From: Deltaproteobacteria bacterium
GTDB lineage: Bacteria > Desulfobacterota > Desulfarculia > JACQYL01
NCBI GenBank assembly: GCA_016208165.1
Contig: JACQYL010000029.1
Location: forward strand, 1-64,000
Direction: 5' to 3'
Length of the DNA: 64,000 nucleotides
The notes beneath the pieces were generated by a model. That model ran no database searches. It worked only from the letters and a program-made list of their open reading frames with translations, and was not told the origin of the DNA. The position numbers and the translations under genes were made by a program. Below, in pieces: positions 10,529 to 42,688 of the stretch; the stretch's first letter is position 1, and each line of letters opens with the position of its first letter.

Positions 10529-12064
10529 TCACTTCACTTGAAGCGTCAGATTCCAGATTGTTGGGTCTCCGCTGCTCGTGGTGATGAGGGGGTGCTTGGC
10601 TACGCCGAGCACCTTCTGCGTTTCATCGGGCATGGCCCTTTCAAGGTAGGCCCGGAGTTCACCCAATGTGATCGTGCCGTCTTTCGCTCCGGCGCTCTGA
10701 AAGCCATCCGCCGCACCTTCAAGGCCCTGGAGAACGCAGTGCGTAAACGCCCCGTTGCGCCACGAACTGTGTTCGACGGCTTGCCGGTCCGTGTCCGCGC
10801 TCACCATGAAAACCCACCCTTTCGGCACCCGACCTTGATCGTGCATGCGTCTAACCGCCGGGACCACGGAAAGCCCCCGTTCGCCGCGGGTGATCAGTTT
10901 CCCCGCATGGCAGGTATCGGCCAGGACCACCACGTTCTTAGCCTGTCGTTCCTTCAGCGAGCCGATGACCCGGTCCATGCGGAATCCCGTCGGTGGGACG
11001 CGGATATCGGTATCGTAGCAGGCAAAGTAGACTCTCTCCGGGTCCTCGGGGTCGGTAAAGCCATGCCCCGCCCAATAGAGCACAACGAGATCTTTTGATC
11101 CGGCTTTTGTAAGCCACGATTCGAGTGCGACTCGAATATTGCGCTCCGCTGCGTCCTCATCGATCAGAACCCGGACGTGATCGGATGACCATCCCGCTCC
11201 GGTCAGCCATCGTGCGAACATGCGCGCATCATCGGCCGCGAACGGGAGAGCGTCGAGTCCCCCCTGACCGGCAAAGGCATACTTTGAGACACCAACCACC
11301 ACCGCCCATCGATTGTATCCCGTATCGACAGGACCGGGGACGACGGACTCGCGGGGAACGGCCGGCTCCGGACCCACAGAGATGTTCGTTGGGGGGGCCG
11401 GGGCGACTTCATTGACCATCCCCTTCTTTGCACGGGCCAGGGCGGCCATCTTGGGAAGTTCCGGCGCCTCTGCGATCCGCTTCGCCAGGTCATCGGCCAG
11501 TTGCACTCGAAGCGCGTCGATTGCCAGGCGAAAGTCGGCGCCCCATTGCGGATGTATGACCTCCGCATGCACGCTGTCCCGGATCACTGGATCCTTTCCC
11601 GAATCCCGGACGCCTACTTCATAGGTCACGGTTCCCGTGGCCGACGGCCTCAATCCGATTAGCCCCATGTTGCTTGTAAGCGTTTTTGTAGCCGTTATGG
11701 AGTCGACACGTCCTCTTACGTAGATGTCTCCGGTGGCCTCGGATATAGACACTTGCGTGAAACGCCCCGTTTTTTGAAGCTCTTTGGCAAGCTCGTCACG
11801 GAGCGCCGCACCGAATGACCTGCAGTCATACACGGCATCGAAGTTAGCGGCTACATCCACTCTATCGAGGTGTTCGCTATCGAAGGCGCTGATTCCACAG
11901 GAGACGCCCAGGCTTGGAAGTTCCGCCGTTTGCTTTGGAATCCCGTACAGCGGGGCTTGCCCACGCGAATAGTGCCCGGCGGCGCAGCCGATTACATCGA
12001 AAAGGAGAAGGCAAGGCAGGAGTAGCGAACCCCATCGGCGGCATCGGGCATACGGCTTTCTCAT
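10529..12064 (-). CDS. Caspase-like (peptidase C14) lipoprotein
   Basis: 511 residues. The start at 12064 is chosen because AAAGGAG lies six bases upstream and it opens directly into a lipoprotein signal (WGSLLLPCLLLFDVIGC, Cys at 27); an upstream ATG 13 codons earlier lacks these. Residues about 50-220 form an uncharacterised beta-rich domain, followed by a Pro-rich linker and a C14 domain: WAVVVGVSKY, YWAGHGF with catalytic His334, and ADTCHAGK with catalytic Cys385. Such peptidases cleave after Arg, Lys or Asp and are often part of signalling or cell-death systems, here placed at the membrane outside the cytoplasm. It converges with the papain-like lipoprotein, 86 bases apart, without a clear terminator between. 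Confidence 0.85.
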   Translation of the reverse strand: MRKPYARCRRWGSLLLPCLLLFDVIGCAAGHYSRGQAPLYGIPKQTAELPSLGVSCGISAFDSEHLDRVDVAANFDAVYDCRSFGAALRDELAKELQKTGRFTQVSISEATGDIYVRGRVDSITATKTLTSNMGLIGLRPSATGTVTYEVGVRDSGKDPVIRDSVHAEVIHPQWGADFRLAIDALRVQLADDLAKRIAEAPELPKMAALARAKKGMVNEVAPAPPTNISVGPEPAVPRESVVPGPVDTGYNRWAVVVGVSKYAFAGQGGLDALPFAADDARMFARWLTGAGWSSDHVRVLIDEDAAERNIRVALESWLTKAGSKDLVVLYWAGHGFTDPEDPERVYFACYDTDIRVPPTGFRMDRVIGSLKERQAKNVVVLADTCHAGKLITRGERGLSVVPAVRRMHDQGRVPKGWVFMVSADTDRQAVEHSSWRNGAFTHCVLQGLEGAADGFQSAGAKDGTITLGELRAYLERAMPDETQKVLGVAKHPLITTSSGDPTIWNLTLQVK

Positions 12065-12379
12065 GGATCGCTCCTTTGCGAAATGCCCCCGCACGAGTGG
12101 CATGCGCTACAACACGCGGAGGTTTGATGGGGCCCCAAAAACAAATGCCTCCGAAGGGATGCAAGAATCCTTCGAAGGCTCGTGGACAGGTATACTCTCC
12201 GGCCATCCTTCCATCGCTCTCCCCGGAAAGATCCGGTGGTGTCAACAGAGGGGTAAACAGAGGAATGAATAATGTATATAGAATATCAACTGCCGGACGA
12301 AATGTCCAACCATGTGTTTCTTCGAAGCAGCGAATAGGGGCAGACCGTTGCTGTTTTTGTTGCGAGGCGCCTCATCGAT
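12065..12379. other. Upstream region of the caspase-like lipoprotein and tetR (divergent)
   Basis: About 315 bases between divergent genes. It carries the AAAGGAG ribosome site for the minus-strand lipoprotein at 12070-12077. I see no minus-strand promoter with both elements and no gene. Confidence 0.4.
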
Positions 12380-28974: not shown

Positions 28975-30201
28975 ATGGATTTCAGACTCAGCCCGAAGGA
29001 AGAAGCATTCAAGAGTGACCTGCTCTGCTGGCTGGAGCAAAACCTGCCCGAAGGCTACCGCTCCGGTGAGTATCGGCTGCCGGATACCTGGGAAAAGCGC
29101 GTTCAGGAATACAGCCGTTTTCAGAAGGCGCTTTTCCAGGGCGGCTATGCAGGGATACGGTATCCCAAAGAATATGGGGGAAGGGGCGGAAGCCTCATGG
29201 AGGAGATCATTGTCCTGGAACTGCTCGCTCCCATATACAGGGATTTCGGTAGTGTTGGGATTATCGGGCATGGTATGGCCAGCCCCACGATTCACATCTG
29301 CGGAACCGAGGAACATAAGCGATCTTTTTTGCCCAGGATTCTGGACGGCAGTCACATCTGGTGTCAGGGATTCAGTGAGCCCAACGCGGGATCGGACGTG
29401 GCGAACGTGTCTACCCGCGCCGAGAAGCGTGGCAACGAATATATCATCAACGGACAAAAGACCTGGACCAGTTTTGCTCACATCGCGGACTACTGTATTC
29501 TCTTGGCCCGAACCGATCCCAACACGGCCAAGCACAAAGGGTTGAGCTATTTTCTGATGGACATGAAGCTCCCCGGAATTGAAGTGCGGCCCATCCGACA
29601 AATAACGGGCGAGCCCGAGTTCAACGAGGTTTTCCTGGAAGACGTGCGAGTGCCCGAGGCAATGCGCGTAGGGGTTGAGGGACAGGGGTGGCAGATAGCC
29701 ATCACCACCCTGATGTTCGAACGCGTCATCGGAGATATCAGCATGGCGGCTCTGTATTCCGATGAGCTTAGGAGGATGCTGAACATGGCCGGGCAGGTGA
29801 AGCGGAACGGACAGGCTGTTCTGGAGAACCCCATATACCGGCAGCAGATGGCCCAGTGCTACATCGAACTCATGGTTCTCAAGTACAACGGGTATCGGAA
29901 CGTATCCAAGTTGATCAAGAACGAGATTCCGGGCCCCGAGGGCTCCATCGGTAAACTCCTGTGGAGCGAGCTGCACCAAAAGATGGGCGAGACGGCCATG
30001 CAGATACAGGGTCCTTATCATCAGATCATGAAGGATTCGCCGTCGGCCATCGACAACGGATTCTGGCAGCACCTGTTTCTGAGAAGCAAGGGCAACACCA
30101 TCGAGGCCGGCACCTCGGAGATTCTGAGGAATATCATAGGAGAACGCGTACTGGGTCTGCCCAAAGATGTCTCAAGAGCCGTCCGGCGTGAAGGGAGGTA
30201 A
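28975..30201 (+). CDS. Acyl-CoA dehydrogenase, probable alpha partner
   Basis: 408-residue FAD enzyme that introduces a 2,3-double bond into an acyl-CoA and passes electrons to ETF. Family landmarks: WCQGFSEPNAGSD, INGQKTWTSFAH, and the C-terminal IEAGTSEILRNIIGERVLGLP (about 376-396). In classical short/medium-chain enzymes the catalytic Glu directly precedes the Gly of that motif; here it is Ala378 with Glu377 one step earlier, as in FadE-type subunits. The next gene, four bases away, encodes a second, different acyl-CoA dehydrogenase. Such pairs in steroid and cyclic-acid degradation form alpha2beta2 enzymes with one active site per dimer; this reading is inference. Confidence 0.87.
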   Translation: MDFRLSPKEEAFKSDLLCWLEQNLPEGYRSGEYRLPDTWEKRVQEYSRFQKALFQGGYAGIRYPKEYGGRGGSLMEEIIVLELLAPIYRDFGSVGIIGHGMASPTIHICGTEEHKRSFLPRILDGSHIWCQGFSEPNAGSDVANVSTRAEKRGNEYIINGQKTWTSFAHIADYCILLARTDPNTAKHKGLSYFLMDMKLPGIEVRPIRQITGEPEFNEVFLEDVRVPEAMRVGVEGQGWQIAITTLMFERVIGDISMAALYSDELRRMLNMAGQVKRNGQAVLENPIYRQQMAQCYIELMVLKYNGYRNVSKLIKNEIPGPEGSIGKLLWSELHQKMGETAMQIQGPYHQIMKDSPSAIDNGFWQHLFLRSKGNTIEAGTSEILRNIIGERVLGLPKDVSRAVRREGR

Positions 30202-30205
30202 AGGA

Positions 30206-31348
30206 ATGGACCTGAGCTTCAATGAAGACCAGATTGAAATCGCAAGGCAAGCCCGTCGGTTCCTGGACAACGAGTGCCCCATGGACAAGGTGAGGCTGCT
30301 CCTCGAGGATGAACATGGATGTACGGACGAGTTATGGTCCAAAATGGCGGAAATGGGATGGATGATGCTGAGGATCCCGGAATCCTACGATGGCATGGGC
30401 CTGGATCTTCTGGACCTCTGCGTTGTGCTCATAGAGATGGGCCGTACGGCGTTGCCGGGACCTTTCTTCTCGACAGTCCTCCTGGCTGCGGAGACGCTGT
30501 TGGAGACCGGGAGCGACCACCAAAAGCAGGCATTTCTGTCCCGAATAGCTTCGGGTGACATCCGGGGGACCCTGGCCCTGCACGAGCCGGCCGGAGGGGC
30601 GGTACCCGGATATGTTCAAATGGAAGCCCGGGCCGACGGTGATGGGTATATTCTGAATGGCGTCAAGGGGTTCGTGCCGGATGCCCACGGAGCCGATTTC
30701 ATCATCTGCGCGGCCCGGACCATGCCCGGCAACGATCCTGCCGAAGGGATCTCTCTCTTCCTTTTGAATCGGGAGACACCGGGCGTTTCGGTGAATCTTC
30801 TGAAGACCATGGACCAAGGTCGAAAGCTTTGCGAGGTGCATTTTGACAAGGTCCGCCTGCCACGACAAGCCGTGCTGGGTGAGGTTCACCGGGGATGGGC
30901 GCCTTTACGCAGGGTGTTGCAGAGGGCTCAGGTAGGTTTGTGTGCGGAAAGTGTGGGCGGCGCTCAGCGGGCCATGGAGATGGCCGTCGAGTACGCGAAG
31001 ATACGTCACCAGTTCGACCAGCCCATAGGAAGCTACCAGGCGATCAAGCACCGGTGCGCCCAGATGCTTCTCGAAGTCGAGGGCTCGCGATCCGTGTTAT
31101 ACTGGGCCGCTTGGGCCCAGGACCATGGAAGCTCCGAGGAGGCTGAACTCGCCGCTTCCGTTGCGAAAACGTATTGCTCGGAAACGTTCAGGAACGTTTC
31201 GGCGGGGGCCATCCAGGTGCTTGGTGGAACGGGCTTCACATGGGAGCATGATATGCACATCTACCTCAAACGGGCCAAGGCCAATGAGGTGGCCTTGGGG
31301 GACCCCGCCTACCATAGGGAAGAAGTGGCACGGCTCATCGGCTGCTGA
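30206..31348 (+). CDS. Acyl-CoA dehydrogenase, probable beta partner
   Basis: 380 residues. The start at 30206 follows GGGAGG and gives the family N-terminus MDLSFNEDQIEIARQARRFL; an upstream in-frame ATG inside the previous gene is unlikely. The C-terminal FAD-binding half is well conserved (KIRHQFDQPIGSYQAIKHRCA, QVLGGTGFTWEHDMHIYLKRA), whereas the N-terminal half is more diverged (LALHEPAGG replaces the usual FAD-contacting segment). This asymmetry is what one expects for one half of a heteromeric enzyme with the upstream protein. The pair sits with TRAP, CoA ligase and a short OYE protein, fitting beta-oxidation of a branched, cyclic or aromatic-derived acid. Confidence 0.87.
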   Translation: MDLSFNEDQIEIARQARRFLDNECPMDKVRLLLEDEHGCTDELWSKMAEMGWMMLRIPESYDGMGLDLLDLCVVLIEMGRTALPGPFFSTVLLAAETLLETGSDHQKQAFLSRIASGDIRGTLALHEPAGGAVPGYVQMEARADGDGYILNGVKGFVPDAHGADFIICAARTMPGNDPAEGISLFLLNRETPGVSVNLLKTMDQGRKLCEVHFDKVRLPRQAVLGEVHRGWAPLRRVLQRAQVGLCAESVGGAQRAMEMAVEYAKIRHQFDQPIGSYQAIKHRCAQMLLEVEGSRSVLYWAAWAQDHGSSEEAELAASVAKTYCSETFRNVSAGAIQVLGGTGFTWEHDMHIYLKRAKANEVALGDPAYHREEVARLIGC

Positions 31349-32669: not shown

Positions 32670-34268
32670 CTAATAGAACTTCAACCGGTGCGTCAATTGC
32701 ATACTTCGCCCGTCCACGAGCTGAACCCGGATTTTGATCTCAAACGTTCCCCACCCTGACGTGGACAAAGGGAAGGCGTGCGGCCCTTGACCCCTGTCGC
32801 ATACCTTTCTGACGGGGTTAGGAAAGGTCGGATGGAGCGTGTACTCCACACATTGAACCACAGCCAAATCACGATCCTCCCCCTGAATAAATACCGTCCA
32901 ATTCCACGCCTTCTCCCCTACCCTTTGTGAGACATTACCCGTGGTAAAGTGCGGCCATTCGGCCTTGGCAGGGGAAAGTCGGACCTCGATGTTTTTGTCC
33001 TCGCCCGGCAACAGATTTATCCAGCTATCATATGGTTCCCATCCCTCGGCGGATACCTCGAGACGATAGCTACCCGGTTTGAGCTCCATTCCTTGAACAA
33101 ACCCGGGCTTGATGTTAACGAGCTTCACCCGGGCGCCATCGGGCTGTGTGGACACATTAAGCCGGGCGTTGTCGACTCGTTCTTTTTCAAGGTCTACGTA
33201 AAGGGAAACGGTTCGGCCCGCTTGAAAAGAAACTCTTCTGGAAAAGAGATTGTACCCTTCTTTTCGGACCGTAACCTCGTGTTCGCCCACAGAGACCGGG
33301 ACATCTGAAAATGGCGTGACCCCTACTTCGATGCCGTCCAAAAAGACCTGAGCGTTGTCCACATTGGAGTCCACGGTCAGCCCTCCCTTTCCCCCGAGCG
33401 GAGTGAGCGTTGCGATGGTCTTGTGGAATACGAAATCTCCTTCATCCAGATCCGGATCCTTGATTTTTCCATATTGAGGCGTCTGCCGCGCATCGTAGGA
33501 AAGCACCTTTCGATGAAGAAACATGCCCAGTTCCGTGCCCGTCACGTAGCCGTCACGGTCAAAGTCCGCTTCTCCGTCAATGGCCCGGACAAAGGAAGGC
33601 ACGAACACGCTCCTGGCGGGTACGGTTTCCCCTGCGCTCCCGGCTGTGATGAATTGACGAACGGGCCGCGCGGTAAGATCCGAAATGTGAGGAGGCTGTT
33701 CCGGTAGGGCGCGAACTTTGAAAACCGTTCCAGAGAAACAGCTGTCGAAAAGAAACAGGGCGTGCCTGGATTCAATACGCCGGGCCCAAGTTACGATTTG
33801 CCTCATGCTGATGGCCTTTTGAACGAATCCAATGTCGTCGAATCTGGGATCAGGGGCGTCGGCAGGGACGATATAGCCTTCTTTTCCTTCTTTGCGTGAA
33901 TGCCCATGCCCCGAAAAGAAGAAGAGTAACCGATTATCCTCATACAGACCGTAACGATTGATGAATTCCTCGAAAGCCCGTTTCATTTCGTCGGCTCCCG
34001 GGTTGAGGACTTTCTCAACGTTGAAACCCTGTCCTTTAAGGGCGGATTCGACTCCTTCCAACTCATCAGGTATGTTTTCCAGATTTGGCCACCCGGCCGT
34101 ATAATTGGAAACTCCGATCAGCAGAGCGTAACTTTGATGATAACTGCCCACTTGCCGTCCCGTATTGTCCTTGATAACGCGAATGCCCTTATCGCTCCAT
34201 GCCGAAGCGGCCGTCAGCCACAAAACGGCAAGGAGAACGGCCAAATTCAGAATGCTCGTCCTCTTCAT
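32670..34268 (-). CDS. Secreted caspase-like protease with EF-hand, PEGA repeats and a YEATS domain
   Basis: 532 residues. A signal peptide (LAVLLAVLWLTAASAWS) is followed by a C14 caspase-like domain with catalytic His121 in FFSGHGHS and Cys177 in FDSCFSG. Residues 235-246 form an EF-hand calcium loop (DFDRDGYVTGTE). Two PEGA repeats follow (about 297-365 and 370-433), a surface carbohydrate- or protein-binding module. The C-terminus (about 438-532) has the YEATS pattern: YTLHPTFPNPVRKV, then STSGWGTFEIKIRVQL and the final LTHRLKF. Prokaryotic YEATS domains are described in counter-invader and signalling proteins. It lies 34 bases downstream of a hybrid histidine kinase, so both are probably one operon. 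Confidence 0.85.
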   Translation of the reverse strand: MKRTSILNLAVLLAVLWLTAASAWSDKGIRVIKDNTGRQVGSYHQSYALLIGVSNYTAGWPNLENIPDELEGVESALKGQGFNVEKVLNPGADEMKRAFEEFINRYGLYEDNRLLFFFSGHGHSRKEGKEGYIVPADAPDPRFDDIGFVQKAISMRQIVTWARRIESRHALFLFDSCFSGTVFKVRALPEQPPHISDLTARPVRQFITAGSAGETVPARSVFVPSFVRAIDGEADFDRDGYVTGTELGMFLHRKVLSYDARQTPQYGKIKDPDLDEGDFVFHKTIATLTPLGGKGGLTVDSNVDNAQVFLDGIEVGVTPFSDVPVSVGEHEVTVRKEGYNLFSRRVSFQAGRTVSLYVDLEKERVDNARLNVSTQPDGARVKLVNIKPGFVQGMELKPGSYRLEVSAEGWEPYDSWINLLPGEDKNIEVRLSPAKAEWPHFTTGNVSQRVGEKAWNWTVFIQGEDRDLAVVQCVEYTLHPTFPNPVRKVCDRGQGPHAFPLSTSGWGTFEIKIRVQLVDGRSMQLTHRLKFY

Positions 34269-34302
34269 TGGTTTTCCTCGCTTCTGATGTAGCGTGTGGG
34301 CT

Positions 34303-36612
34303 TCATCTCAAGGGCACGACGGAAAGAATTTCTTTGAGTTTCCTCGACAGTTGAGAAATTGTCAAAGGCTTCTGCAGAAAACCTTCAGCCCCTGCGTTCA
34401 GGATCTCACGCGCCGGCCCGTCAACCGAATAGCCGCTGCAAACGATTACTTTCAGATTTGGGCGCGCTTCGACAAGCAGCAGATACAGCGCCTTACCCCC
34501 CATGTCCGGCAATACGACATCCAGAATAGCAAGATCAATTTCTCTATCAAACGTTTTGGCGATTTCTAAAGCCTCTTTGCCTGTCTTTGCTCTCAACACG
34601 CGATAGCCCATAGCCTCCAGCATTTCCGAGGTTACGTTCATAACCATTTCTTCGTCTTCAATAACCAGAATGGTCCCACCCAGTTCCGGAGTATCGGGCT
34701 TTTCGTTTTCTTCCTCGACCGCATGAGGTTCAAGGGCGGGGAAGTAAAGCCTGACTATGGTGCCTTTTCCCATTTCAGATGCAACCGTGATCCAACCTCC
34801 GTGGTTCTTCACAATGCCATATACGGCCGCCATACCCAGACCTCGACCGGTGGACTTGGTTGTGAAGAAAGGTTCGAAGATCCGCTGCTTTGTAACTTCA
34901 TCCATTCCTTTTCCGTTATCCTCGATGCTCACGCATACGTAACGTCCGGGTACCACCTGAAAACCGTTTATCCGATCCTGGCTGATGGCTTCGTTTGCGC
35001 ACGAGATCCGAATTCTACCCTTCCCTTCAAGCGCTTCAGATGCGTTGTTCAATATGGCGGACAGCACCATTTGCAGCTGAGTCACGTCTGCTTCGACACT
35101 CCGCACATCGGGCGGCAGCTTTGTCTCCACCTCCATTGAATCCTTGAGCGAATCCAGAAGTACGGGCAGCGTGTCTCGAATGAAGTCACTCATTACTACC
35201 TCTTTGACCCGATATTTTCCTCCCCGGGCGTAAGCCAGAAGCTGTTCGGTAAGCTGGGTCATGCTTCGGGCGGATTCCCTCATTGATTTAAAATACCTCG
35301 CTACTTTGTCCCGATCCTCATAGTTTATGCTTGCCAGATCCAAGTAGCCGGTTATGGCAGATATTTTATTGTTGAACTGGTGAGCTATTCCACCCGCCAA
35401 GGTAGCAATGGCGTCCACTCTCTTGACGGCATTGAGTCTGTATTGAAGTGTTTGCTTCTCCTCCTCCACCAGTTTCCGATAAGTAATATCTTTTGCAAGT
35501 ACAACGATTCCACTGGGGGTTGGATAGACATTTACATCAAGAAAATAGCGTGTGGACTTAATCTCGATTTCAGACTCCGAACTGTTCGCCTCACCGGTAC
35601 TTAAAACGTTGATACATAGTTGTTCAATCATTGACCCCTTGATGCCTGCAAACAGTTCATAGAAAGAGGTTCCGATAGCCTCGGCCGCAGGAATCCCGGT
35701 AAGATTCTCGGAAGACTTATTCCAGAAAACGCAGTTCAGCCCACGATCCAATGCGAAAAAGACATCCGTGATTCCGTCGGAAAGCTGCCTATAACGCTCC
35801 TCGCTCTCCCGCAGCGCCTCTTCGGCGCGCCTGCGCACAGATATTTCATCATTCAGCTGCTTATTCGCATTTCTAAGGTCGCTGGTTCTTTCTATAACTC
35901 GCTTTTCCATCGCTTGCTGGGCGATGAGCAATTCTTTCTCAACGTACTGCAAATGGTTTGTCTTCTCTTCAAGCTCGATATTCTTTTTGCGTAGATCCCG
36001 CTCACTTCTTTTCAAGAGACGCCCGGTATACGCCGAGACAAAAGCCGCCACCTGAAGATAACAGATCACCGTGATTACTATGGCGGCCTGATTCAGTCCG
36101 GGCAGGGGCATACTTTGGAGGGGGTCCTGACTGGGAAGGAATCCGAAATGCTCCAATGCCACCGAGCCGGCCAGGGCAATTCCACAAAACGAAGCTACGA
36201 TAAACGGTAATCTCCAAGGGCCGATTGCACCCAAATACGCTGTGAGGACAGCGTACAGGGGTGTCAAGTACAAGGCCCTGATGCCTCCCAGGAAGTAGAT
36301 GACAGCCGTGTACCCGATGACATCCAATAGATTGACGAAAAGAGAGAAACCATCCGCAAGCCGTCGATTCGAAATGCGCCTCAACAACCACAAAACGGGC
36401 GGATTGATCAGGATGAGGTAAACGACGGTAGCACTGATACCGAAGAAGTTGTTCGGTCCGATAAGATGCAACCCGTAAGCCGTCAAGGCGAACAGCCACA
36501 TGAATAAACTTGCGCCCGATCGGAGCCAGGCTCCTTGATAATGATACTTGTAAAGCCGCCGCAAGTACTCGGGTTCAGACATTTTGGGATTCGGGTTTTG
36601 GACGCGCATCAT
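34303..36612 (-). CDS. Hybrid sensor histidine kinase (membrane sensor, PAS, HisKA, HATPase, REC)
   Basis: 769-residue inner-membrane kinase. About six helices (residues 28-200) form an integral-membrane sensor, then a coiled coil (RLLKRSERDLRKKNIELEEK), a PAS domain (about 270-385), a HisKA box with phospho-His in AGGIAHQFNNKISA, an ATPase with NNASEALEGKG, DNGKGMD and GRGLGMAAVYG, and a C-terminal receiver (VIEDEEMV; phospho-Asp in LAILDVVLPDMGG). AGGA precedes the paired ATG start. The signal is unknown. Because the next gene encodes the caspase/PEGA/YEATS protein, the kinase may control or sense processes linked to that protease. Confidence 0.9.
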   Translation of the reverse strand: MMRVQNPNPKMSEPEYLRRLYKYHYQGAWLRSGASLFMWLFALTAYGLHLIGPNNFFGISATVVYLILINPPVLWLLRRISNRRLADGFSLFVNLLDVIGYTAVIYFLGGIRALYLTPLYAVLTAYLGAIGPWRLPFIVASFCGIALAGSVALEHFGFLPSQDPLQSMPLPGLNQAAIVITVICYLQVAAFVSAYTGRLLKRSERDLRKKNIELEEKTNHLQYVEKELLIAQQAMEKRVIERTSDLRNANKQLNDEISVRRRAEEALRESEERYRQLSDGITDVFFALDRGLNCVFWNKSSENLTGIPAAEAIGTSFYELFAGIKGSMIEQLCINVLSTGEANSSESEIEIKSTRYFLDVNVYPTPSGIVVLAKDITYRKLVEEEKQTLQYRLNAVKRVDAIATLAGGIAHQFNNKISAITGYLDLASINYEDRDKVARYFKSMRESARSMTQLTEQLLAYARGGKYRVKEVVMSDFIRDTLPVLLDSLKDSMEVETKLPPDVRSVEADVTQLQMVLSAILNNASEALEGKGRIRISCANEAISQDRINGFQVVPGRYVCVSIEDNGKGMDEVTKQRIFEPFFTTKSTGRGLGMAAVYGIVKNHGGWITVASEMGKGTIVRLYFPALEPHAVEEENEKPDTPELGGTILVIEDEEMVMNVTSEMLEAMGYRVLRAKTGKEALEIAKTFDREIDLAILDVVLPDMGGKALYLLLVEARPNLKVIVCSGYSVDGPAREILNAGAEGFLQKPLTISQLSRKLKEILSVVPLR

Positions 36613-36966: not shown

Positions 36967-37218
36967 ATGGCTAAGTGGACAGTAGAACAGCGAAAATTGG
37001 ATGCATCCAAAGGAATTTGGACAAAGAACGGCACATGGGAAGTCGAGGCTCAAGAGCCTGACGAAGCCCTGAAATACGTATTTGTCAATTACCTGGACTT
37101 GACCGACGAATTTGACCGGTTCATACGACAAGCGAGCAAGGAGCTTTTCGGGCTGACTCTGACCGTTGAAAACAAATCGTGGTTGGTGAAGCCCGCCGGC
37201 GCCGGGGTACCCGGCTGA
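36967..37218 (+). CDS. Small hypothetical protein (83 aa)
   Basis: Short soluble protein beginning MAKWTVEQRKLDASKGIWT, acidic in the middle (EAQEPDEALKYVFVNYLDLTD split by aromatic residues). It has no Cys, no signal and no membrane segment. The gene call rests on AAAGGAG five bases before the ATG, coding-like composition and a strong terminator 80 bases downstream. I do not recognise a family. Confidence 0.6.
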   Translation: MAKWTVEQRKLDASKGIWTKNGTWEVEAQEPDEALKYVFVNYLDLTDEFDRFIRQASKELFGLTLTVENKSWLVKPAGAGVPG

Positions 37219-37297
37219 TAACGCGCAGAATTGGCTTAGGTATCTGTGTTACCGGCCCTCGAACCGAAGGTGGAAAAACACCTTTCCCCGTACCCGC

Positions 37298-37429: not shown

Positions 37430-38878
37430 CTATTCCGTAATGCCGCAGAGTCTTTTCGCCGCTTTGATCTTTTCCTGCATATCCACTCGTCTCGCGATCA
37501 TGACCCGCTGGGCCTGAGGAGAACCTGCTCCATGCATGGACTCGGTCAGGTATCCAACAGCGGCGGCGCCTAGAGTCAAATTTTCGATGAGCCGGAGCAC
37601 GTGCATCCGGTCCTTCATGGAAACATTAGGATCGGCCTGCAGGTATTTGGTCACCAGATGGCCCACTTCCGGCGAGTTCAAATCCTGTTCCGATGGACAG
37701 GTGACCATGAGTCCGCCCGCGAGATCCTGCGCCAGTCTTGAAATCTCGTAGGGAAACCTCGTCACGTTCTGTTTGTGCACATTGGCCAGCAGCGTGTCCA
37801 CCGAATACGTTCCGCTGGGTTCCTGGTATCCTTCCGAAGCGCAGGCGATGCAGCCGCAATAGAGTGTTTCATTGAGATGATTCATCTCGATGAGCTTGTC
37901 CTTTACATGGCTGGCCCCGGCCACTCCATTATATTCGGCCACCAACTGGGCCGCGCCGATTAGAACGTCTCCGACTCCGACTTTGCATGCGTAACTCTGG
38001 CGATGGTAGCCGGCAAAACTCTCCACCAGCTGCACTGCCATCTCATGCTCTTTGTACATGAACACTCTGTCCCAGGGGACAAACACATCTTCGAAGACAA
38101 CCAGTGCTTCATGTCCCCCGTAAAGGACATTTCCCCGGTCCATGCAGCCGCCTTCCAGTTTTCGGGTATCACAGGATTGGCGACCCACAATATAGGTGAT
38201 TCCTTTTGTATCGCTGGGCAATGCGAAACTCACGGCATAGTCCCTGTCTTCCTCTCGCATGGCCAGGGTCGGCATCACGATGATTTCGTGAGAGTTGACC
38301 GCTCCGGTCTGATGCGCCTTGGCTCCCCGGACGATGATGCCGTCGGATTGCTCTTCCACCACGTGAACGAAATGATCCGGGTCGGGCTGCTTGTGAGGAG
38401 GGGTCCCTCTGTGCCCCTTTGGATCCGTCATGGCCCCGTCGCAGATCAGGTCTCTTTCCTGAACATGGCGGAGGTAATCCAGAAAGCGATCGTAGTACGT
38501 GGTCCCGTGCTTCCGGTCCGTATTGTAGGTAACAATGGAAAGGGCGTTCAGGGCATCCATACCCACGCATCTCTGAAAGCAGCAACCCGTCAGTCTGCCC
38601 AGCAAACGCCCCATCTTGCTCTTCTTGACAAGATCGTCCACGCTCTGGTGTATATGAGTAAAACGATTGATCTTTTCACCCGTGAGGTGGGATCGAGCCG
38701 TCATGAGGTTTTCGTATTCCGGTTGATGAGCCAACTCATACGTGACGGCAACTGCGTTCATGGAAGGACGGATGATGGGATCATCCACCACGTTCTCAAG
38801 CTTTTTCCCGAACATGTAGACCTTCAGGTTCAGAGCTCGCAAGCTCTCTTCGTATTGTTCAGCCGTCATCAAAGCCAT
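37430..38878 (-). CDS. 4-hydroxybutyryl-CoA dehydratase / HpaB-family protein
   Basis: 482-residue member of the family uniting flavin-dependent 4-hydroxyphenylacetate 3-monooxygenase and the [4Fe-4S]/FAD enzyme 4-hydroxybutyryl-CoA dehydratase. The dehydratase reading is preferred: a Cys100-x3-Cys104 pair (GCCFQRCVG) and His292/Cys298 (GYHRQSYACKVG) stand where the four cluster ligands occur, and the surrounding genes are anaerobic CoA-ester enzymes. The dehydratase converts 4-hydroxybutyryl-CoA to crotonyl-CoA by a ketyl-radical mechanism. The spacing of the His/Cys pair should be compared with characterised enzymes before the function is accepted. AGGAGG precedes the ATG. Last gene of the minus-strand operon. 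Confidence 0.8.
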   Translation of the reverse strand: MALMTAEQYEESLRALNLKVYMFGKKLENVVDDPIIRPSMNAVAVTYELAHQPEYENLMTARSHLTGEKINRFTHIHQSVDDLVKKSKMGRLLGRLTGCCFQRCVGMDALNALSIVTYNTDRKHGTTYYDRFLDYLRHVQERDLICDGAMTDPKGHRGTPPHKQPDPDHFVHVVEEQSDGIIVRGAKAHQTGAVNSHEIIVMPTLAMREEDRDYAVSFALPSDTKGITYIVGRQSCDTRKLEGGCMDRGNVLYGGHEALVVFEDVFVPWDRVFMYKEHEMAVQLVESFAGYHRQSYACKVGVGDVLIGAAQLVAEYNGVAGASHVKDKLIEMNHLNETLYCGCIACASEGYQEPSGTYSVDTLLANVHKQNVTRFPYEISRLAQDLAGGLMVTCPSEQDLNSPEVGHLVTKYLQADPNVSMKDRMHVLRLIENLTLGAAAVGYLTESMHGAGSPQAQRVMIARRVDMQEKIKAAKRLCGITE

Positions 38879-38931
38879 GGTATAAGCCTCCTTAGTTCGT
38901 TTGCGGGCCTGCTACGGCCGGGTTTCGCCCC

Positions 38932-39699
38932 CTACAGAGCCTCGGGACTCTTGTTTAGCGCCTCGTAAGCCGCCATATCGTGGGAAGGAATGATGTCGGC
39001 ATCGAGCAAGCGAGCCAGATGTTCCAGGCGATAGAGGCTTTCCACACACTGCTTGGCGCTATAAGCATTGCTGAGCGGTATCTTCCGTTCCAGATTCTCC
39101 ACAAGGGGCATGGCGTCACCGGGAAAAATGCAGAATCTTCCATCCGCCGTCTTCACCAAAACCGACTGGTGTCCGGGTGTGTGTCCCGGAGTCCTGATGA
39201 CCGAAACATCGGATGTTACAAACCCGTCTCCCTCCAGAAGCTGAAAGTCCAGAGGGTGCTTGAAGTGATTGGCCATGTACGGCGCCGAAATGAACGGATC
39301 CGGGTTGAAGGCAAACCGATACTCTTCCTTTTGTACAATAATGGGGCAGTGCTTGAAAAAGCGCAAGGCGCCGGTATGATCCCAGTGCATGTGCGTCAGA
39401 ATCACCATCCTGATGTCCGAGACCGATAAACCCAACGCCTTCAACCTGAGACGAACATCGTCCTCCTGCGTCAAGTGCGGTTTGATGATCTTGGCTCGCG
39501 GCCCCCAGGTCTTTTCCGGCTCAGTGAGACCGTCTGTGTTCAGACCTGCGTCAATGAGGATCGGCCCTTCAGTATCCATGAGAAGAATGGTATACACCGG
39601 GGCCTTGATCACTCGGCCCATGTCCGTGTTGGAGAGGAAAATGGATCGGTCGATGTCCAGAAAACCGCTCGGAAGAATGAATATCTTTTCCACAGCCAT
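38932..39699 (-). CDS. Metallo-beta-lactamase-fold hydrolase
   Basis: 255-residue MBL protein with the dinuclear-metal motif THMHWDHTG (HxHxDH), a second-site His in RTPGHTPGHQ, Asp in FPGDAMP and His in IIPSHD. Layout is close to N-acyl-homoserine-lactone lactonases and related cytosolic hydrolases. In this operon, between a CoA transferase and a dehydratase, a lactone or thioester substrate is plausible (inference). GGAGA precedes the ATG. Confidence 0.85.
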   Translation of the reverse strand: MAVEKIFILPSGFLDIDRSIFLSNTDMGRVIKAPVYTILLMDTEGPILIDAGLNTDGLTEPEKTWGPRAKIIKPHLTQEDDVRLRLKALGLSVSDIRMVILTHMHWDHTGALRFFKHCPIIVQKEEYRFAFNPDPFISAPYMANHFKHPLDFQLLEGDGFVTSDVSVIRTPGHTPGHQSVLVKTADGRFCIFPGDAMPLVENLERKIPLSNAYSAKQCVESLYRLEHLARLLDADIIPSHDMAAYEALNKSPEAL

Positions 39700-39801
39700 A
39701 TTCGCGTCTCCTTTTAATGCCTCGGGGCTGCTTTACAGCTCTTCCTAAGGTTGTCCGAGCGTCTGTTACGACGAAAACTTTTTTTCCACGGAGGGCTTTT
39801 T

Positions 39802-40989
39802 TTAGATTACCTTTTCCACCCTCAGACTATCAATCTCTTCCGGTGACAAACCGAGCCATTCCTCGAGGAATTCGGCTGTATGCTCGCCCAGGTCCGGCGA
39901 CGCCTTTTCGATCCGACAGGGAGTACGCGAGAATTTCATCGGCGTACCCACCACGTTCACTTTCCCGAGGCGGCTATGGTCCACGGCTAATATCATTTCC
40001 CTCTCAAGGACGTGCGGATCCGAGACAGCCTGCTGAATATTGTTCACCGGACTCACCACAATCCCTTGCTGCTCGAGCAGATTCAGCCATTCGTCCCGGG
40101 TCTTCTGCTTGAAGATCTCTACGAGCAGAGGTTCCAGCTCGGCGTGATGCTCCGTCCTATTCGCCGACGTGTTAAACCGTTCGTCTTCGATCCATTCTTC
40201 CCGTCCGATCACGCGACACAGATTTCTCCACTCCTCATCCCGAAACGTGATGACGACCATGTCATCGGTCTTCGTTGGAAAGACTTGGAAAGGTGTAACA
40301 ATAGGATGCCGGCTCCCAAGTGGACGAGGGACCTCCCCGGTAGCGAAGTAGCGCGCGCAGGCATTCTCGCACAGAGCCACCTGACAGTCTAGCATGGCCA
40401 CGTCCACCTGTTGGCCCAGTCCGGTTTTTTCGCGCTCGTACAAGGCAGCCATGGCAGCGGTCACAGCATAGAGGGCCGCTCCGATATCTCCAATGGAATA
40501 GCCTACGCGAACGGGCGGCCTGTCGGCTTCCCCCGTGATACTCACCGTGCCGCCCATGCCTTGGGCGATCATATCAAAGGCCGGTTTCTGAGCATAGGGG
40601 CCGTACTGCCCAAAGCCTGAAATGGAAACATAGACCAAGCCGGGGTTCAGCTCTTTGAGCGAATCATAGTCAAGCCCCATCTTTTTCATGACGCCCGGAC
40701 GAAAGTTCTCCACCAGGATATCGATTGTACCAATCAGCTTCAGGAGCAATTTCTGAGCCTTATCGTGACGCATGTTCAAGCCAACGCTCTTTTTGCCTCT
40801 GTTGACACTGAGGAAATAGGAACTGACGTCTTTGATGAAGGGACCATTGTTTCGGGCCATATCACCCTTCTCCCGGTCCTCGATCTTAAAGACCTCGGCG
40901 CCAAGATCCGCCATTAACATGGCCGCGTACGGTCCTGCCAAGACGCGTCCAAAACTCAACACTTTCACGCCCGTAAGCGGTCCCGCCAT
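39802..40989 (-). CDS. Family III acyl-CoA transferase
   Basis: 395-residue CaiB/BaiF-type (formyl-CoA transferase) enzyme that moves CoA between carboxylic acids through a covalent aspartyl-CoA intermediate. Landmarks: VLSFGRVLAGPYAAMLMADLGAEVFKIE at the N-terminus, VENFRPGVMKKMGLDYDSL, catalytic Asp in KPAFDMIAQGMGG, and VSPVNNIQQAVSDPHV near the end. Full length, no frameshift. It provides an ATP-free way to activate the pathway acid using another acyl-CoA as donor. Confidence 0.92.
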   Translation of the reverse strand: MAGPLTGVKVLSFGRVLAGPYAAMLMADLGAEVFKIEDREKGDMARNNGPFIKDVSSYFLSVNRGKKSVGLNMRHDKAQKLLLKLIGTIDILVENFRPGVMKKMGLDYDSLKELNPGLVYVSISGFGQYGPYAQKPAFDMIAQGMGGTVSITGEADRPPVRVGYSIGDIGAALYAVTAAMAALYEREKTGLGQQVDVAMLDCQVALCENACARYFATGEVPRPLGSRHPIVTPFQVFPTKTDDMVVITFRDEEWRNLCRVIGREEWIEDERFNTSANRTEHHAELEPLLVEIFKQKTRDEWLNLLEQQGIVVSPVNNIQQAVSDPHVLEREMILAVDHSRLGKVNVVGTPMKFSRTPCRIEKASPDLGEHTAEFLEEWLGLSPEEIDSLRVEKVI

Positions 40990-41029
40990 TTCGAACTCCT
41001 CAACTGATTAGTGCGCTGCCGTGCATTCT

Positions 41030-41043
41030 TCCGGTTAACCGGA
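41030..41043. promoter_or_regulatory. Palindrome between carboxyltransferase and CoA transferase genes
   Basis: TCCGGTTAACCGGA is a perfect 14-bp palindrome about 40 bases upstream of the CoA transferase start. It could be an operator or a processing hairpin; function unproven. Confidence 0.3.
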
Positions 41044-41122
41044 TCGCTGTTCGATTCCGGTCAGCACTGTTTTGAAATACTTTCTCCAAACGATTCGGAG
41101 TAGGACTTTCCACGAAAGCCGG

Positions 41123-42688
41123 CTAAAGCGGTATATTACCGTGCTTTCGCCATATCGCGCCTTCCGGTTTCTTGTCCTTGAAGACCCCCAACGCCCAGAT
41201 CAGCCATCGTCTCGTGTCCTTGGGATGGATCACCCCATCTATGTATTGCTTGGATGCTGAGTAATAAGGCGACAATATGGTCTCTTTATACTCGACGATT
41301 TTCTCTTGCCGGACCTTCTCCTGGTCGTCGGCCTCCGCGATTTCTTTTCTGTAAAGGATCGGTACGGCCGCTTGGGAACCGAGCATGGCAAATTCGGCCG
41401 TGGGCCAGGCCAGAAGGATGTCCGCCCCCGTCTCGTGGCAGCACATGGCCGGTATGGCGCCGCCGTAGTATTTTCTCAAAACAATGGTGATTTTGGGTAC
41501 GGTGGCCTCGGAAAACGAATAGAGCATCTTTGCCCCGTGTCTGATGATGCCCCGCCGCTCCTGATCGGAACCCGGAAGGTAGCCGGGCACGTCAGCCAGC
41601 ACGATCAGCGGGATATTAAAGCAGTCACAAAACCGGATGAACCGCGCCGCCTTGTCCGCGGCATCGATGTCGATGGTGCCCCCCAGGTACTTGGGCTGAT
41701 TGGCCACCACGCCTGCGACCTTGCCGCTCAGCCGGCCGAATCCCACGATCATGCTCTTCGCAAAAGAGGCGTGGACCTCCAAGAAAGTGTCCATGTCCAT
41801 GAGTTCGCGAATCACACGACCCATATCGTAGGTCTTCCGCGGTTCGGCGGGAACGATCTCCGTCAGAATATCGTTGGTTCGTTCCGGATCGTCTTCCAAC
41901 TCTTTTGCGGGAGGTACCTCACGGTTGTTCTGGGGCAGATAGGACAGCAGTCTCCGGATCAACTCGCAACATTCAAGGTCGTTTTCGGCTGCAAAGTGAG
42001 CCACTCCGGATTTACCTGTGTGAACCGCATACCCGCCTAAACCTTCGAAGGAAATTTCTTCGCCCGTGACTTCTTTGATGACCGCCGGGCCGGTAATAAA
42101 CATTTGCGCCGTTCCCTTGACCTGGACGATAAAGTCCATGATAGCGGGTGAATAAACCCCTCCACCGGTGCAGGCGCCCATGATGGCTGCAATCTGCGGC
42201 ACAACGCCCGAGCATTGGGTATTTTCGAAAAACATCTGCCCATAGCCGGACTCATTTTGCATGCCGTCCTGGATACGGCCCCCCGCCGACTCGTACAGCC
42301 CGATGACCGGCGCCCCCGCCCTGCGGGCCATACGCAACATCAGGTTGATTTTTTCTCCATGGGCCCGTCCGGCCGAGCCGCCGAAAACCGTTACATCCTG
42401 GGAGTATACGAAGACGTTTCGGCCGTTGATCTTCGCCATACCCGTAACCACACCGTCTCCCAGGATCTTCTTGTCCTGCATGTCGAATTCAAAGGTCTGG
42501 GTTTCGGCCAGCATATTGATCTCTCTGAAGGTGCCGGGATCCACCAGGGCGTCGATCCGTTCCCGGCAGAGAAGCTTTCCCTTGGCTTTCTGGGCCTCCT
42601 GTTTTTCAGGGCCGCCGCCCAGTTTCGCCTTGTTCTCCTTGGCCTCGAGTTCGGCCAACAGCTCATCCCATGGTTTCCAGGGCTCCAT
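41123..42688 (-). CDS. Acyl-CoA carboxylase/decarboxylase carboxyltransferase subunit, second copy
   Basis: 521-residue biotin-dependent carboxyltransferase, homologous to the protein at 6640 along its whole length. Motifs: CRERIDALVDPGTF, ESAGGRIQDGMQN, GACTGGGVYSPAIMDF (oxyanion region), NQPKYLGGTIDIDAADKAARF, VPGYLPGSDQERRGIIRHGAK. Biotin carboxylase, carrier or a decarboxylating membrane subunit are not nearby. The two copies in one window sit in different catabolic modules, so each may act on a different acyl-CoA. Here the neighbours suggest glutaconyl-CoA, methylmalonyl-CoA or an aromatic acyl-CoA. Confidence 0.9.
   Translation of the reverse strand: MEPWKPWDELLAELEAKENKAKLGGGPEKQEAQKAKGKLLCRERIDALVDPGTFREINMLAETQTFEFDMQDKKILGDGVVTGMAKINGRNVFVYSQDVTVFGGSAGRAHGEKINLMLRMARRAGAPVIGLYESAGGRIQDGMQNESGYGQMFFENTQCSGVVPQIAAIMGACTGGGVYSPAIMDFIVQVKGTAQMFITGPAVIKEVTGEEISFEGLGGYAVHTGKSGVAHFAAENDLECCELIRRLLSYLPQNNREVPPAKELEDDPERTNDILTEIVPAEPRKTYDMGRVIRELMDMDTFLEVHASFAKSMIVGFGRLSGKVAGVVANQPKYLGGTIDIDAADKAARFIRFCDCFNIPLIVLADVPGYLPGSDQERRGIIRHGAKMLYSFSEATVPKITIVLRKYYGGAIPAMCCHETGADILLAWPTAEFAMLGSQAAVPILYRKEIAEADDQEKVRQEKIVEYKETILSPYYSASKQYIDGVIHPKDTRRWLIWALGVFKDKKPEGAIWRKHGNIPL

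Follow-up and report, generated by a model that had tools for sequence, protein, structure and literature searches.

We analyzed the first 64,000 nucleotides of contig JACQYL010000029.1 (assembly GCA_016208165.1) from a Deltaproteobacteria bacterium, referred to below as the window. Two adjacent minus-strand genes in it encode a membrane hybrid histidine kinase and a predicted exported protein, here called the caspase-pYEATS protein, in which a caspase domain is followed by two PEGA repeats and a C-terminal pYEATS domain. Both open reading frames were found where a preliminary description of this DNA, made from the letters alone, had placed them. Coordinates are positions in the window, and residue numbers refer to the caspase-pYEATS protein of 532 amino acids (aa) unless stated otherwise. 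The features, with the evidence for each, are as follows:

34303..36612, minus strand: membrane hybrid histidine kinase, 769 aa (Pfam; hydrophobicity)
32670..34268, minus strand: predicted exported caspase-PEGA-PEGA-pYEATS protein, 532 aa (Pfam; AlphaFold2 (AF2) model)
34200..34268, minus strand: predicted Sec signal peptide, residues 1-23 (KR n-region, hydrophobic 5-23, ASA cleavage motif before W; sequence reading)
33423..34136, minus strand: caspase (Peptidase_C14) domain, residues ~45-282 (Pfam; Foldseek)
33906-33908 and 33738-33740, minus strand: catalytic codons of the caspase domain, His121 and Cys177 respectively
33531..33566, minus strand: EF-hand-like loop D235-E246, within the caspase domain (canonical loop; AF2 model)
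33180..33386, minus strand: PEGA repeat 1, residues 295-363 (Pfam PEGA)
32976..33179, minus strand: PEGA repeat 2, residues ~364-431 (PEGA / CarboxypepD_reg; blastp)
32673..32948, minus strand: pYEATS domain, residues 441-532 (Pfam, phmmer, PDB profile search, conservation, AF2)

Domains of the caspase-pYEATS protein

The only hydrophobic stretch in the hydrophobicity profile of the protein covers residues 5-23 and is followed by the ASA motif, in line with the signal peptide of the preliminary description, which remains a prediction. The Pfam Peptidase_C14 match spans residues 47-189 (E = 1.1e-14, 55.2 bits against a cut-off of 21.4), and the His121/Cys177 dyad named earlier was recovered, with H121 in an SGHG motif and C177 in a DSCFSG motif, both of which are retained in related caspases. 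Profile and dyad together place the protein in the caspase family, its proteolytic activity being putative. The pair of PEGA repeats was likewise confirmed (Pfam, E = 9e-24 for the whole protein); the second is of the type 'NIxPxFxQGMELxPGxY' and is 45% identical to the L083/L098 repeat by blastp, and both are beta-rich in the AF2 model. That model was built from a multi-domain alignment in which a few tail residues are misplaced; in it, the all-beta C-terminal domain and the greater part of the caspase have a predicted local distance difference test score (pLDDT) of ~95. When the whole protein was compared with the PDB by Foldseek, the best match was the MALT1 paracaspase (9e-14).

A calcium-binding EF-hand had also been proposed, and this stands in part. 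The loop D235-E246 has the canonical 12 residues, DFDRDGYVTGTE, and in the AF2 model it is flanked by helices at 222-233 and 244-254, with a short strand at 241-243. A separate EF-hand domain was ruled out, as the match stays below the Pfam EF-hand cut-off (10.9 bits against 25.4) and the loop sits inside the caspase. With its consensus shared by 10 of 24 related caspases, the loop is better described as a trait of the family than as an added domain.

The pYEATS domain, its cage and its export

In eukaryotes, YEATS domains are nuclear readers of histone acylation. The preliminary description had seen a YEATS-like domain at the C-terminus, and the profile search that it proposed returns Pfam pYEATS at residues 455-529 (E = 2.1e-21, 76.0 bits against a cut-off of 26.9), together with the eukaryotic YEATS family at residues 455-532 (E = 1.3e-15, 57.5 bits against 22). 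With phmmer, the C-terminal domain reaches yeast Yaf9 (1.9e-9) and human GAS41 (~1e-6), and a profile of 29 bacterial pYEATS domains, run against the PDB, matches no chains other than those of YEATS proteins at E<=0.001; the Yaf9 match and the profile result make the assignment independent of Pfam alone. The structure prediction proposed at the same time gives an all-beta domain and is not in itself a confirmation of a YEATS fold: the Foldseek search, in which the pYEATS domain was included only within the whole protein, has caspase/MALT1 matches and no YEATS chain among its top 50.

The residues that form the acyl-lysine cage have been mapped in GAS41 (H71, S73, Y74, W93 and F96, with G92 and G94), where W93A and G94A abolish binding (PMC5995911), and in AF9 (F28, H56, S58, F59, Y78 and F81; PMC9293779). 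In the phmmer alignment, GAS41 H71/S73/Y74/G92/W93/G94/F96 correspond to H479/T481/F482/G505/W506/G507/F509, so that the cage residues are intact in the caspase-pYEATS protein, its acyl-lysine binding being putative. L numbers denote genomic loci throughout. A motif scan (LHPTFPNP and WG[TQ]F[ERT]I[QK]I) of GTDB species genomes yielded 31 loci. The cage set is invariant or close to it, with H, F, WG and F unchanged across 29 aligned pYEATS domains, a conservation that is partly built in since the scan motif itself contains some cage residues. Two checks are free of the motif: the N-terminal copies of six tandem proteins keep the cage set apart from one change of F to I, and in a Pfam-based sample from other genomes most cage residues are kept in most domains.

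A pair of cysteines, C473 and C490, lies symmetrically around the LHPTFPNP turn, which makes a disulfide between them plausible. Cysteines are present at both positions in 12 of 19 exported pYEATS domains and in 0 of 15 cytosolic ones (Fisher p=1.4e-4, uncorrected for sequence relatedness), a bias that fits an oxidizing compartment independently of the signal peptide. Predicted export extends beyond the caspase-pYEATS gene to tandem pYEATS proteins and to a TIR-transmembrane(TM)-pYEATS protein. Burroughs and Aravind (J Bacteriol, 2020) reportedly treated prokaryotic YEATS domains as sensors in immune systems. That prokaryotic setting is already described and the newer part is the export, for which a full-text search with partial coverage of the literature found no paper on an exported YEATS or pYEATS form.

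The phylum of the window organism holds a set of exported caspases with swapped C-termini, as read by eye. FGE-sulfatase-type C-termini occur in a paralogue from the same genome (L002), in L008 and in L085, and other relatives end in DUF1566-like, coiled-coil or beta-barrel-like regions. L008 is the closest caspase outside the pYEATS pair, with 67% identity over 239 residues. FGS lectin-like domains have been proposed as invader sensors in conflict systems (PMC8195603), which supports pYEATS, found in the same position, as a recognition arm. NaphS2 (L021) encodes a caspase-PEGA-like-pYEATS protein whose caspase is 27% identical to that of the window and groups with L094. Well-supported branches of the caspase tree require the caspase-pYEATS label to change two or more times; judged from this tree, the fusion of caspase and pYEATS arose at least twice, the exact position of L021 being unsure owing to its long terminal branch.

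Probable kinase independence and possible roles

The kinase is a membrane hybrid kinase, as the preliminary description had it, with the Pfam order membrane-PAS-HisKA-HATPase_c-REC and several TM helices (hydrophobic segments between its residues ~59 and 194). That account joined the kinase and the exported caspase into one extracytoplasmic signaling module. Such a pathway would be consistent with the kinase being a membrane protein and with the gene arrangement, in which a gap of 34 bp on the same strand and a good ribosome-binding site (GAGG, 7 nt 5' of the caspase ATG) suggest that the two genes may share a transcript at this locus. The distribution of the genes argues otherwise. The only full-length orthologue of the same architecture found in the phylum sample, from Desulfobacteraceae CG2_30_51_40 (MNYJ01000050.1, G159; 60% identity), has by eye a VapBC-like pair upstream, a GspE-type ATPase gene downstream and no adjoining kinase, and no kinase adjoins the NaphS2 caspase-pYEATS gene. 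The membrane sensor region of the kinase has copies in 10 further genomes of the phylum sample, one of which carries two, and in an additional genome of the class; a caspase relative is present in none of the 12 fetched loci, several of them on short contigs. At other pYEATS loci, nothing comparable to the HK/REC part was found except for a weak match in L134. A lack of co-conservation of the two genes had been named beforehand as the result that would speak against the module, and this is the result obtained; we reject a dedicated kinase-caspase module, regard a single pathway as very improbable, and conclude that the neighboring sensor kinase is probably not a dedicated partner.

Our preferred reading, to which we assign a probability of roughly 0.5, is a Sec-exported caspase that works independently of the kinase and carries its C-terminal pYEATS domain as an exchangeable recognition arm that guides or switches the peptidase. 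It builds on the domains, the dyad, the export signal and the intact cage residues, on the swapping of C-termini in close relatives, and on the recurrent association of pYEATS with caspases and other effectors. The caspase-type cysteine peptidase would leave the cytoplasm via Sec and act alone rather than as a kinase output, with the PEGA repeats possibly spacing or tethering the catalytic domain in the envelope. Outside the cytoplasm, the pYEATS domain would bind a protein or cell-surface ligand, most likely via the aromatic cage; an acylated lysine or a similar amide-bearing group is the natural guess. Binding could bring the peptidase to its target or switch it on, calcium may influence its activity, and defense against invaders or competitors is a conceivable purpose. 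Cleavage would probably follow Arg/Lys, by analogy with orthocaspases (PMC6426788).

Several points weigh against the recognition-arm reading. About 2-3 of the 8 domains in the motif-independent sample, drawn largely from the L023 phylum, have a degenerate cage; acyl-lysine binding therefore need not hold for all pYEATS domains, and the cage is common among them and not universal. A counterpart of the AF9 cage member F28 is not obviously retained, and the cysteine comparison takes no account of sequence relatedness. With the caspase-pYEATS protein seen in no more than 3 genomes, the arm may have other roles or no conserved one. To our knowledge, it is not established that lysines are acylated in the periplasm, and we know of nothing that would supply acylated lysine outside the cytoplasm in the window organism.

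The same architecture could belong to a structural or housekeeping protease of the envelope, in which pYEATS, like PEGA, serves simply for adhesion as a beta-sandwich and reads no ligand, and envelope proteins are trimmed by the caspase. The beta-rich PEGA repeats, the varied C-termini of the relatives, which include an apparent OmpA-type beta-barrel, and the motif-independent pYEATS domains that lack a cage all suit this view; yet no positions in the exported set are better conserved than those of the cage, tandem copies outside the motif selection included, and the recurring partners of pYEATS are TIR and caspase effectors, not structural proteins. We consider such a protease unlikely. A role in conflict overlaps with the recognition arm but commits to a function: an exported defense or inter-bacterial effector would sense an invader or competitor at the envelope through pYEATS, and the caspase would kill, disarm or trigger self-killing. 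Neighbors and fusions of pYEATS include TIR, caspase, CHAT, papain-like and patatin proteins. The domain is rare, in 7 of 326 genomes of the phylum of L023 and 2 of 329 of that of L024, and patchy in the window's phylum (3 of 395; centre genomes counted throughout). The surroundings of the caspase-pYEATS gene, however, do not look like a defense island: by eye, its neighbors at 28975-31348 and 37430-42688 resemble acyl-CoA metabolism (acyl-CoA dehydrogenases, CoA-transferase, carboxyltransferase), and PADLOC returns a generic caspase match only. A defense role is thus suggested by the company that pYEATS keeps and not by the gene's own neighbors, and we hold it as a tentative possibility.

Taken more broadly, and somewhat more doubtfully than the role in conflict, YEATS domains may serve as readers of acyl groups outside the cytoplasm. 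Caspase-PEGA-pYEATS proteins, signal peptide-pYEATS-pYEATS proteins with a two-TM partner, and TIR-TM-pYEATS proteins would then be one exported set that senses acyl-modified or similar ligands outside the cytoplasm and passes this recognition on to caspase or TIR effectors. YEATS domains with an intact cage in predicted exported proteins, joined to caspases at least two times, suggest that the uses of YEATS include envelope sensing, and bear on how caspase and TIR effectors are wired to sensors outside eukaryotes. Small proteins such as the L019 tandem pYEATS provide a short list for ligand finding.

Related systems and pYEATS loci in other genomes

The window copy shares with immune pYEATS (PF20305) the domain family and the linkage to effectors such as TIR and caspases, but it is C-terminal, predicted to be exported, accompanied by PEGA repeats, and equipped with a cysteine pair that the examined cytosolic copies lack. 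Bacterial caspase homologues and orthocaspases have the same HC dyad, an N-terminal hydrophobic segment or signal peptide and a swappable C-terminal domain (PMC3501461), whereas the window protein has pYEATS in the C-terminal slot; the words YEATS and PEGA are absent from the main text of that survey. With the eukaryotic readers (Yaf9, Taf14, GAS41, AF9) it shares a homologous domain in which H, S/T, F/Y, WG and F are kept, and differs in being predicted extracytoplasmic, with no histones and a putative acyl-lysine binding. EACC1-associated caspases (NF047832; PMC7159879) also combine a caspase with variable C-terminal domains and a membrane link; membership was ruled out on the NF047832 score (46.3 bits against a cut-off of 140), and no EACC1-type gene was recognised beside the window caspase. 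The MALT1 paracaspase (caspase-Ig) likewise has a caspase followed by a beta-sandwich, but it is an intracellular animal scaffold protease and the likeness is one of fold only.

Linkage of pYEATS to effector domains, as expected of immune systems, is present both in the window (fused caspase) and elsewhere (TIR, caspase, papain-like, patatin). Cytosolic forms are pYEATS-TIR fusions or stand-alone pYEATS adjoining TIR-like genes. Fusions aside, caspase genes lie near pYEATS in L015, L034 and L038. Papain-like genes are close by in L040, L042 and L045, and L131 has one of similar appearance; L042 also has a patatin gene, and L128 and L133 likely have one too. Exported tandem pYEATS proteins occur in L019, L020, L023, L024, L025 and L027 and an exported single one in L042. 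A membrane protein gene of 160-230 aa directly precedes the exported pYEATS genes at the following positions, the last of which has a similar gene before pYEATS:

L019, 5088-6258
L020, 4902-6270
L023, 5021-6264
L024, 4907-6240
L025, 5067-6252
L027, 230-1514
L042, 5264-6282
L040, 5412-6489

The membrane protein starts with two hydrophobic helices, in many cases followed by a coiled coil, and ends in a beta domain predicted to have seven strands (AF2 mean pLDDT 79); it has no Pfam match above the cut-off. The 2TM-pYEATS proteins of L045 and L013 resemble a fusion of it with pYEATS, and the pair is possibly an undescribed two-gene cassette found in several phyla. The TIR-TM-pYEATS protein of L022 (5242-6240), from a gammaproteobacterial metagenome-assembled genome, resembles a one-chain receptor, with TIR predicted inside and pYEATS outside. 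An operon-like row in L015 (4496-7301) consists of a caspase, a YaeF/YiiX-type papain-like peptidase (C92) and a 2TM-beta-pYEATS protein.

The window itself contains a second caspase gene at 10529-12103 on the minus strand, whose product of 524 aa starts like a lipoprotein and has, ahead of the caspase domain, a region with a weak likeness to LptE. In the gap upstream of the kinase, a small open reading frame starting MAKWTVEQRKLDASKG was read by eye at ~36996-37247 on the plus strand, opposite to the kinase. Finally, L132 (4207-5649) encodes a protein with many HQFD/CQH repeats and what looks like a zinc-metalloprotease motif, HEFGHALGFAHE; a weak pYEATS match (E 1.9e-6) lies within it, in which the cage residues are not kept.

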